A stretch of 64,000 bases of DNA from Chryseobacterium aureum (GTDB lineage Bacteria; Bacteroidota; Bacteroidia; Flavobacteriales; Weeksellaceae). The stretch covers positions 1,116,001 to 1,180,000 of the forward strand of contig NZ_CP034661.1 in NCBI RefSeq assembly GCF_003971235.1, read 5' to 3'. The notes beneath the pieces were generated by a model. That model saw nothing but the letters and a program-made list of their open reading frames with translations. It was not told the DNA's origin and ran no database searches. A program made the translations under genes and the position numbers. Below, one piece after another: positions 57,418 through 61,578 of the stretch (positions are counted from its first letter, which is position 1; each line of letters starts with the position of its first letter).

Positions 57418-58019
57418 AAAAATTCATTCTTTATACAAAAGTAATGAAAGGACCTTGGTAATTCCAAAAGCGAAAATATGAGATCGGCTCTTTGTTATAA
57501 AAAACATATATTTTTCTGCCTAATAATGCTTTATCAATCAGTTTATATTTCTATTCATTAGCTGTTTATCCCTTCCACAGAACTCAAGTGAGTGTAAGTA
57601 ATTTATTTTCAACTACATTAATCATATATATCTGTTTAAAATAGTTCATCATCTGTACTGATTCTTCCGCCGTGGCAGAGAAACATGATCTCCTTATGTC
57701 ATGAAATGTGACGGCTGACAAAAATTCCGAGGGAAAAATCCGGTTGAAAAATAAGTTTTCTTAACATAAAAACTCATTTCAGGTGAAAAATTTACATTCA
57801 AAAAAGACGCATTACGAAAATATTATGTCAAGCATTCTTTATTGTTTGTTTTATCAACTCCAATATAGAAGGCAGAAAACGGTTACCGTTTTCACATAAT
57901 TTTACAGATAGAGTAATAAAAGTATTAATAAATTCCTAATAATACATTAATTTAATATAAACAAAAGTTCACTGATAAATGAACAAAAACCTGCGTAATA
58001 CACTGATATACATCATAAC
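57418..58019. other. AT-rich region without visible genes
   Basis: About 600 bases before the 26-residue gene. No reading frame of interest, no RNA motif and no strong hairpin seen. Confidence 0.5.
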
Positions 58020-58106
58020 TATTTACTTTGGCACATGATTTGAAAGTAGTAATATTGCAATTGAAAAATTGATAAAAATAATCCAAATAATTAAAAATAA
58101 TACAAA

Positions 58107-58187
58107 ATGGTAACTTATATCGGTATCGCAACAGGTTTAGTAGTAATCGCTTCCTATTTCATGACAGTAAGAAGAGAAAGAAACTAA
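58107..58187 (+). CDS. 26-residue single-pass membrane peptide
   Basis: A very small gene: MVTYIGIATGLVVIASYF, then MTVRRERN. It has one membrane segment (residues 4-20) and a basic tail, so it would orient with the tail inside. The A/T-rich leader and an AAAATAATACAAA-type upstream are compatible with translation, but no strong ribosome-binding site is visible, which is normal in Bacteroidetes. A structured RNA and terminator follow, and these could be its 3' UTR. The conserved hydrophobic core and charged tail support a real gene. Confidence 0.55.
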   Translation: MVTYIGIATGLVVIASYFMTVRRERN

Positions 58188-58230
58188 TTTCGAAATAAAG
58201 AAAGCCTATAGAATATCTATACACATTATA

Positions 58231-58305
58231 TTGTTTTATGTTTTTAGTCTGAGAGATCAGATTGCTCTTTTACCATCGGGTAAAAGGGCCCAAAAACATA
58301 AACAG
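58231..58305 (+). ncRNA. Candidate structured RNA: compact three-way junction
   Basis: Three helices account for nearly every base. P1 is TTTATGTTTTT (58235-58245) with AAAAACATAAA (58292-58302). P2 is AGTCTGA (58246-58252) with TCAGATT (58257-58263) closing on a GAGA tetraloop. P3 is GCTCTTTTACC (58264-58274) with GGTAAAAGGGC (58279-58289) closing on ATCG. Only CC (58290-58291) is unpaired at the junction. P2 includes one G-T pair and P3 one. It lies between the 26-residue gene and a terminator at 58345-58380. It resembles a riboswitch architecture but matches none that I know. It may act in 3' UTR control, attenuation or as a small RNA. Confidence 0.6.
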
Positions 58306-58344
58306 AAAGATCTTAGTTTCATAACAAATTTTAATATCCAAATG

Positions 58345-58380
58345 AGATAAGCCGGTCGTAAGTCTGGCTTATCTTTTTTA
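58345..58380 (+). terminator. Terminator after the structured RNA
   Basis: AGATAAGCC (58345-58353) pairs with GGCTTATCT (58366-58374), followed by TTTTTT. Confidence 0.88.
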
Positions 58381-58560: not shown

Positions 58561-59280
58561 ATGAATCTGTACAACCTCATTATTCAAGATAAAGAACAGG
58601 TAAGCCTTAACGAGGTATTTCTCAATGCGAATAACAGAGATCAGCTTGTACAGTTGGTTAAGGAACATACATACAGCAAAGAGCTGCTGGAGTACGGCCT
58701 TCCGGTTAATAATAAGATTTTGCTTCAGGGAAGTTCAGGATGTGGAAAAACTATGACCGCAAAGGCTATTGCCAACACCTTGGGAAAAAACATCATGATT
58801 CTGAATCTGAGCAATATTGTTTCATCCCGTATCGGCGAAACGTCTCAGAATATTAAAATGATCTTTGATAAAGCAGGCCGGGAAAGATCTGTACTTTTTT
58901 TGGATGAGCTGGACCAGATCGGCAAAGCAAGAGGCAGTGATGATAAGGATGTGGGTGAAATGAGAAGACTGGTGAATACATTAATTCAACTCATTGATTA
59001 TTATCCGGAAAATTCGCTTTTACTCTGCGCTACCAATCATCCTGAGATTATTGACACGGCGTTGTTAAGACGCTTTCAGCTGAAAATCAATTACGAAATG
59101 CCTTCCGACGAAATTCTGGATACATTCTATGATCGATTACTGACACAATTTCCTGAAGAGATTAAAACGGTTGAAAGAAAATATTCCATTTCTTTTGCAG
59201 AGGCTAAAGATCATGCTTTAACAACTGTGAAAGCGAATTTAATCAAAAAACTGGAAACCCAGGAAACCATTTTATCATGA
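58561..59280 (+). CDS. Single-domain AAA-family ATPase
   Basis: A 239-residue protein with one AAA domain: Walker A GSSGCGKT (residues 57-64), Walker B VLFLDELD (111-118), a sensor near CATNHPE and arginines in TALLRRFQLK. There is no substrate-binding domain and the small helical lid is short, so it may work with a partner. It overlaps the YggS-type gene by 4 bases. It could remodel a protein complex. Its partner cannot be inferred from this window. Confidence 0.9.
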   Translation: MNLYNLIIQDKEQVSLNEVFLNANNRDQLVQLVKEHTYSKELLEYGLPVNNKILLQGSSGCGKTMTAKAIANTLGKNIMILNLSNIVSSRIGETSQNIKMIFDKAGRERSVLFLDELDQIGKARGSDDKDVGEMRRLVNTLIQLIDYYPENSLLLCATNHPEIIDTALLRRFQLKINYEMPSDEILDTFYDRLLTQFPEEIKTVERKYSISFAEAKDHALTTVKANLIKKLETQETILS

Positions 59281-60131: not shown

Positions 60132-60305
60132 ATGAATAAAAAATTACTATCGGCCTGTCTGCTCATGACAGTATTATTCTTTTTTTCATGTGAAAAAGAA
60201 AACACACAGATGAAAAGTGGAATTTCCATTGAAACGATTTCAATTATAACCTGCGTTACGATGGGCTTAGCAATTTTGCTGGCTTATACCGTTAAAAGAA
60301 GATAA
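60132..60305 (+). CDS. 57-residue small lipoprotein with a C-terminal membrane segment
   Basis: A short gene with a signal sequence ending in a Cys (FFFSCEKE, Cys near residue 20), then a polar linker and a second hydrophobic segment (about residues 38-52, ISIITCVTMGLAILLAYT), ending VKRR. A protein with a lipidated N-terminus and a membrane tail would be held at two points. The tail resembles that of the 26-residue gene at 58107. It lies alone and ends before a terminator. Confidence 0.5.
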   Translation: MNKKLLSACLLMTVLFFFSCEKENTQMKSGISIETISIITCVTMGLAILLAYTVKRR

Positions 60306-60434: not shown

Positions 60435-61268
60435 ATGAAAAAAACACTCCTGTCATCACTTTTACCTTTACTCATTTTGAACTGTACCCACAAAAAAGAA
60501 AATGTTCAACAGGTAAATAAAGAAAATCCAAATCTTTTAATGTCTATCCCACTTAAATATCTTGCAGATTATCCGGCTATTAAGGATTCTTCGTTGTTTA
60601 TCAGAAATCTCCAGCAGGCTTTTAATCTCCATGTTCATGAAAGCCCTGCTCAGCAGGAAAGTGAAAAAATAATGGCCTTTAAAAAGGTAAAGATTTATGG
60701 TTCAGATGAGGAGTACTACTTTATTGAATATGACTGGAAAACGGGTTCCAATGCTGAATATCCGTGGAAAAATCAACTCTTGCTAACCCAAGAAGGGAAG
60801 CTGGTTAAAAAATTATCAGCAGCACGGTATCAATTTGTTTCTATTTTCCCCAAACAAAATCCACACTTACTAACAACCTTAGTTACAGGACATGGAAACG
60901 GAGGTCATGAAATTTACAGGCTAACAGCAGATTCTTTAGAAGATATTTATGGGGGTGATGTCAGAACATATGACGCTCATGAAGATAATAAAGTGTATGA
61001 ACCTCATGAGCTACAGTTAAAAATTAAAGACTACAATAATGACGGGTTTAACGATATTGCCTTTGTGGGAAAACTTGTATTGATCCAGAGGCGAACACCG
61101 GATGGATTCTGGTATAACAATACAACAATAGATGGAAGGGAAATCAAATATTCTGTTGATAATCCTTACAAAAAAATTCCTGTAGAATATATTTTTCTTT
61201 ACGATCAAAAAACAGGACATTTTAAACCAAAAGGAGATTATAGAGAGAAATATAAAATAGATGAATAG
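60435..61268 (+). CDS. Putative lipoprotein with an FG-GAP-like motif
   Basis: A 277-residue protein starting MKKTLLSSLLPLLILNC, with a possible lipidated Cys at residue 17. The body has a beta-rich region. KDYNNDGFNDIAFVGK (near residue 200) resembles an FG-GAP/calcium-binding loop. Similar proteins in Bacteroidetes are annotated as XAC2610-related or hypothetical. The longer frame that begins upstream lacks a signal sequence at its start, so I use this ATG. Function unknown. Confidence 0.7.
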   Translation: MKKTLLSSLLPLLILNCTHKKENVQQVNKENPNLLMSIPLKYLADYPAIKDSSLFIRNLQQAFNLHVHESPAQQESEKIMAFKKVKIYGSDEEYYFIEYDWKTGSNAEYPWKNQLLLTQEGKLVKKLSAARYQFVSIFPKQNPHLLTTLVTGHGNGGHEIYRLTADSLEDIYGGDVRTYDAHEDNKVYEPHELQLKIKDYNNDGFNDIAFVGKLVLIQRRTPDGFWYNNTTIDGREIKYSVDNPYKKIPVEYIFLYDQKTGHFKPKGDYREKYKIDE

Positions 61269-61275
61269 AAATTTT

Positions 61276-61578
61276 AGATTGCTTCGCTACGCTCGCAATG
61301 ACAATGACCATACAAATCTCATAAGTTGCAGAATAAAGCACATCGTTTAAGCTTAGCTGAGTGCAACGCCTTTGCAAACATTGAAACAATCAGTAGCCGG
61401 AAAATCTTTGCGCCATTTGCGTTAAAGAGATTGCTTCGCTACGCTCGCAATGGCAATGGCCGTACAAGTCTCGCAATTTGTCGGAAAAATACATTGTTTA
61501 AGCTTTGCTGAGTGGAACGCCTTCGCGAACCTTGAAACAATTAGTAGTCGAAAAATCCTTGCGAATTTTGCGTTAAAG
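61276..61578. repeat. Two-copy tandem repeat, 152-bp unit
   Basis: Copy A (61276-61427) and copy B (61428-61578) align over their whole length with scattered differences. Each starts AGATTGCTTCGCTACGCTCG and ends TTTGCGTTAAAG. The unit includes an ATTGC ... GCAAT self-pairing stretch. A 61-codon frame over part of it is not likely to be a gene. The region is more GC-rich than its surroundings and lies between the lipoprotein gene and gcvP. Confidence 0.9.

Follow-up and report, generated by a model that had tools for sequence, protein, structure and literature searches.

What does a compact three-way-junction RNA do behind the gene of a 26-residue membrane peptide? This question is raised by a locus in a 64,000-nucleotide stretch of the Chryseobacterium aureum genome (hereafter the window), in which a promoter, a very small open reading frame, a folded RNA and a terminator follow one another on the same strand. 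The reading we favour, at a rough probability of 45%, is that of a genus-specific structured 3' UTR which acts in cis on a regulated small-membrane-protein mRNA. The features of the locus are as follows.

58003..58016, + strand: Crp/Fnr-like box CTGATATACATCAT (TGAT-N4-ATCA at 58004-58015)
58027..58057, + strand: predicted promoter, conserved in the alignment (-33 element TTTG at 58027-58030, 19 bp, -7 element TAATATTG at 58050-58057)
58107..58187, + strand: gene of a 26-aa single-helix membrane peptide, MVTYIGIATGLVVIASYFMTVRRERN, found in every one of the 99 same-genus genomes sampled
58234..58302, + strand: three-way-junction RNA (P1, P2, P3), from folding, covariance model, covariation and pair probabilities
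58235-58245/58292-58302: helix P1, 11 bp
58246-58252/58257-58263: helix P2, 7 bp, loop GAGA
58264-58274/58279-58289: helix P3, 11 bp, loop ATCG
58290-58291: unpaired junction bases, CC
58303..58345, + strand: A/U-rich linker from junction to terminator, from the alignment, conserved among close relatives
58346..58379, + strand: terminator-like hairpin with T run, from the sequence

The region 58225-58310 folds with an energy of -28.9 kcal/mol (shuffled mean -13.2, sd 2.6), corresponding to a z-score of -6.0 that was equalled or bettered in 0 of 200 shuffles. Folding matched base for base the three helices, loops and unpaired CC proposed in an earlier sequence-only reading of this DNA, and the 26-residue peptide gene and the terminator that it had placed on either side of the RNA are found as the 26-aa ORF at 58107-58187 and the terminator-like hairpin with its T run. 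The core pairs have probabilities of 0.9-1.0 within a predicted transcript of 319 nt, the outermost 1-3 pairs of P1 being less firm (0.35-0.8), and the three-way junction is the minimum free energy structure in 91 of 93 copies. An ATTG-containing stretch directly 5' of P1 is conserved in the alignment and can pair with CAA behind P1, giving an extended P1 in many species. Of 87 distinct relatives, 50 have, by a strict script, a perfect-stem hairpin with T run at 37-56 nt 3' of the junction. Between the peptide stop and P1 there is also a small inverted repeat (58204-58222, GCCTATAGAATATCTATAC), whose conservation is limited to the more closely related half of the genus. An ORF with its start inside P1 (ATGTTTTTAGTCTGA) was rejected, its frame, read by eye, differing between species.

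Among 86 distinct copies, 96.9% of cells are paired and double-sided changes are seen in 15 of the 27 pairs (93 cells in all); none of 500 shuffles reached any of the pairing or covariation measures, and sliding the partners lowers pairing to about 50%. Alignment A4 was preferred over the MAFFT alignment A1, where P2 is misaligned in distant species, and A3 antisense matches were taken out before the counts. As A4 is fitted to the structure, and hence biased toward it, changes were counted also on an independent tree built from promoter and peptide DNA only: 33 double pair-keeping changes were found there, with 0-4 for the slid versions. P2 is the most variable helix; P3 is nearly never broken, and its arms change jointly in two lineages (CUC/GGG to CUG/CAG in one, to CAC/GUG in the other). 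This excess of compensatory changes over both shuffled and slid controls marks the element as a structured RNA under selection. The covarying pairs that the sequence-only reading had named as a check are thus present on alignment and tree alike, and its proposal of a functional RNA gains comparative evidence from strong covariation and genus-wide conservation. Further to that, G-U outnumbers A-C in the pairs by 138 to 19 (77 to 19 when the one pair that most often wobbles as U-G is left out), so that it is the + strand that folds, as RNA.

The mean share of the commonest base over copies is 0.93 in P1, 0.94 in P3, 0.75 in P2 and 0.56 at unpaired positions, and 0 of the 19 unpaired junction columns are conserved at 97% or more. 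From a ligand-binding junction or a target-pairing loop one would expect the opposite pattern. The simplest reading is that the helices P1 and P3, or one strand of them, are recognised.

The RNA is specific to the genus Chryseobacterium in the material searched. R1, a covariance model made from 19 copies, matched 84 of 246 family genomes, in single copy each and all among 99 same-genus genomes; with a second model 3 of 395 genomes of the class gave a junction, these too all of the same genus, and neither set yielded a junction outside Chryseobacterium by covariance models. An independent DNA pattern searched against ~85,000 species matched 85 stretches, of which the 80 listed by title comprise 78 from Chryseobacterium, 1 from a Weeksellaceae MAG and 1 from Methylotenera. 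The Methylotenera copy (L280), which scores 14 bits at E 0.49 and has no peptide, was set aside as matching the pattern by chance. BLASTN with the whole locus gave a match in most same-genus genomes. The C. aureum genome (5.07 Mb) has one copy of the element, and searches of plasmid and phage collections gave no match. With a single copy per genome and absence from these collections, a mobile or repeated element is not supported, and the terminator-associated repeat that the earlier reading had considered as an outcome against itself did not materialise.

The peptide is present in all 15 same-genus genomes without a genome match to R1. Diverged junctions were recovered in 4 of these (L027/L115, L123 and L124 with R1, L109 with R2), and in 3 more (L112-L114) the junction is doubtful; in 8 of the 99 Chryseobacterium genomes covariance models found no recognisable junction, the peptide being kept there. 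L112, L113 and L114, which are related species, retain a P1-like helix around another inner structure, in one of them with UAUGCUUUC/GAAAGCAUA; a remodelled junction is possible.

The peptide was found by tblastn in 30 of 30 fetched loci, and its 64 distinct versions, of 25-27 residues, follow the fixed pattern M....G..T......SY..T...E. From its sequence it reads as one hydrophobic helix that is basic at one end. Comparison points to selection on the peptide sequence (mean pN/pS 0.32, median dN/dS about 0.21). Pfam and NCBIfam hold no family match for it, and searches for homologues outside the genus gave weak, unconvincing matches alone. The junction starts 37-68 nt behind a 26-27-residue membrane peptide in 79 of 79 named-genome copies, and none of the named-genome loci has the RNA without the peptide. 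That peptide and RNA form one control unit, as had been proposed, therefore stands as regards the unit (same promoter and terminator, RNA never without peptide), with control as a possible role. In no fewer than 8 of 99 genomes the peptide is kept with no recognisable junction, so that the peptide can do without the RNA.

The promoter is conserved as well. A TGA[TC]A[TA]ACATCA-type box (TGAYAWACATCA) occurs in 105 of 105 distinct promoters, 99 strictly and 6 with one base changed, and lies 45-46 bp 5' of the -7 element in the 95 regions with both strict motifs. The -7 box itself, TA-N2-[AT]TTGC, is present in 101 of the 105, some with the full TAnnTTTG consensus, and the -33/-7 elements of the peptide gene match the Bacteroidetes promoter consensus; transcription would start near 58062. 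A sigma-54 promoter (TTGGCAC-N5-TTGA, ~58029-58044) was rejected, being lost in the diverged L020, L025 and L030 with box and -7 element kept.

The consensus of Fnr-type regulators is TTGAT-N4-ATCAA. The symmetrical TGAT-N4-ATCA site at a fixed distance from the promoter is what a Crp/Fnr-regulated promoter should carry, and the putative Crp/Fnr assignment of the TGATATACATCA box is one of symmetry only. The genome has 8 Crp-family HTH matches, 7 of them above the curated cut-off. Loose box patterns fall mostly in coding sequence, the strict pattern combined with conservation being alone informative for the regulon; the strict box occurs 7 times in the genome. One such site, outside the window, is the yceI box TTGATATACATCAA at G000:C1:4737516-4737527 (L242). 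All 22 species that were compared have it, most of them in the form TTGAT[AG]TACATCAA, and it is followed about 36 bp downstream by a TACATTTG-type -7 element. Sharing this box with yceI across 22 species, the peptide transcript probably belongs to a Crp/Fnr-type regulon together with yceI.

Taken together, these observations suggest the following model. Positions 58062-58380 would make up one short Chryseobacterium transcription unit, whose promoter may be controlled by a Crp/Fnr-type regulator at the box. The resulting mRNA of ~320 nt would encode the 26-aa inner-membrane peptide, probably oriented N-out, C-in as judged from its basic C-terminus, and would end in the three-way junction as a structured 3' UTR followed by the intrinsic terminator. 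An RNA-binding protein or nuclease could recognise the long helices P1 and P3, conserved in sequence and pairing, and thereby determine how long the peptide mRNA lasts or how it is translated. A cis-acting 3' UTR fits best because the constant part of the locus is peptide gene and box, with a junction that can be lost; its loss in 8 peptide-keeping genomes is what is expected of an accessory cis element. Pairing between leader and junction is no better than chance by duplex energies compared with shuffles (median z +0.5), so a direct block of translation is unlikely. The comparison does not directly favour a cis over a trans role.

The main rival to the cis reading, and a tentative one, is a dual-function RNA. 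Besides coding for the peptide, the transcript would then have a role in trans, through base pairing or through a regulatory protein that it binds; the active form could be the whole transcript or a junction cleaved off as a stable 3'-UTR-derived small RNA. The compact conserved fold with a terminator at the 3' end is in its favour, as is the overall layout, which is that of the Crp-controlled dual RNAs VcdRP and AzuCR (PMC8672173). Base pairing in trans would call for a seed; however, no conserved seed loop is visible among the 19 unpaired junction columns, the linker is A/U-rich and hence a poor seed, and some species have lost the junction and kept the peptide. We regard as slightly less probable still the narrower form of this idea, a Bacteroidota genus-specific dual-function RNA whose Crp/Fnr-controlled transcript gives both the peptide and a stable junction that binds a protein in trans via P1/P3.

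It is unlikely that the junction is an independent non-coding RNA with its own promoter between the peptide and P1. The conserved ATTG-containing stretch directly 5' of P1 could belong to such a promoter, but the ATTG can be accounted for by its pairing with CAA behind P1, a TTTG at the right distance was not found by eye, and the RNA is never seen apart from the peptide. A type I toxin-antitoxin system, in which the peptide would be a membrane toxin and the RNA its antitoxin, would suit a peptide of this size and hydrophobicity with a basic C-terminus, yet we consider it very improbable: the RNA lies on the same strand and is not complementary to the leader (duplex energies no better than shuffles), there is one copy per genome with the peptide kept in all genomes, some species have lost the RNA and kept the supposed toxin, and no plasmid or phage copy was found.

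Behind the terminator, at 58561-59280 on the + strand, lies a stand-alone AAA ATPase gene that is a syntenic neighbour in most Chryseobacterium species. Its best NCBIfam match is the anti-phage ATPase IteA, at 171 bits against a cut-off of 510, and membership of that family was rejected on this score. A riboswitch or attenuator for this gene is suggested by the terminator behind the junction and by the same-strand, mostly syntenic position of the gene, but we consider it very improbable: a conserved unpaired core is lacking (0 of 19 columns), the junction sits behind its own gene and before the terminator, and the distance between the peptide start and the AAA start varies, from about 300 to 1350 bp. 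In addition, directly upstream of the AAA gene in the window lies a -7-like box of its own, TATCTTTG, and 11 sister-genus AAA loci have neither box, peptide nor junction upstream. Equally improbable are DNA-level palindromes for protein binding, or a repeat, in place of an RNA: P1 and P3 are near-perfect inverted repeats of conserved sequence, but the element is single-copy and the G-U/A-C asymmetry (138 vs 19) argues for selection on the folded + strand RNA.

Two further observations concern the downstream part of the window. At 60132-60305 (+ strand) there is a lipoprotein-like ORF of 57 aa, for which a search for families gave no match; it has a second hydrophobic stretch that ends in TVKRR. 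At 61222-61550, ASVAKQSK and CERSEAIS occur in translations of several frames and have the look of short dispersed repeats.

In Bacteroidota outside the gut genera, little work has been done on small proteins and structured RNAs. The structured 3' UTR that we favour would be part of a small unit whose promoter box is defined and whose peptide is conserved, and the junction, conserved in sequence and pairing, has no curated family. Species that have naturally lost the RNA but retain an intact peptide gene offer a ready comparison for RNA function, and the box common to yceI is a first handle on when the unit is expressed.

How does the locus compare with known systems? Covariance-model scores against Rfam (release 15) gave no family at the gathering threshold in the window or in 12 relatives, the best sub-threshold scores lying far under gathering (e.g. 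SpF39_sRNA, 23 vs 60 bits), in agreement with the earlier statement that the layout belongs to no known class; no description in Chryseobacterium was found in the open-access literature. The junction RNA fits no known RNA family, and hence is a new RNA. We know of no sequence relation between VcdRP and the Chryseobacterium RNA, and of no three-way junction in AzuCR, whose small protein is membrane-associated. VcdRP of Vibrio cholerae is a CRP-repressed dual RNA that encodes a 29-aa peptide and whose VcdR part pairs with mRNAs through four cytosines (PMC8672173). The likeness lies in a short Crp-controlled transcript with a small peptide and an RNA part, the box here being assigned by symmetry; in contrast to the four-cytosine pairing motif of VcdR, the Chryseobacterium junction has no such conserved unpaired motif, and whereas VcdRP is repressed by Crp, the Chryseobacterium side is known from its box alone. 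AzuCR of Escherichia coli is likewise Crp-repressed and encodes a small protein (PMC8672173), thus sharing the combination of small protein and RNA on one Crp-controlled transcript, although base pairing with mRNAs has been shown for AzuCR, whereas the Chryseobacterium RNA is known from sequence comparison. Within the same class, Flavobacteriia, the sRNA Rfp18 of Flavobacterium psychrophilum affects protease expression (PMC9723704). Rfp18 and the other independent F. psychrophilum RNAs are, like the junction, genus-conserved and strongly folded; Rfp18 is set apart by its description, in which no peptide is reported with it (PMC9723704). By analogy, then, it is in its overall layout that the Chryseobacterium locus resembles known small-protein transcripts.
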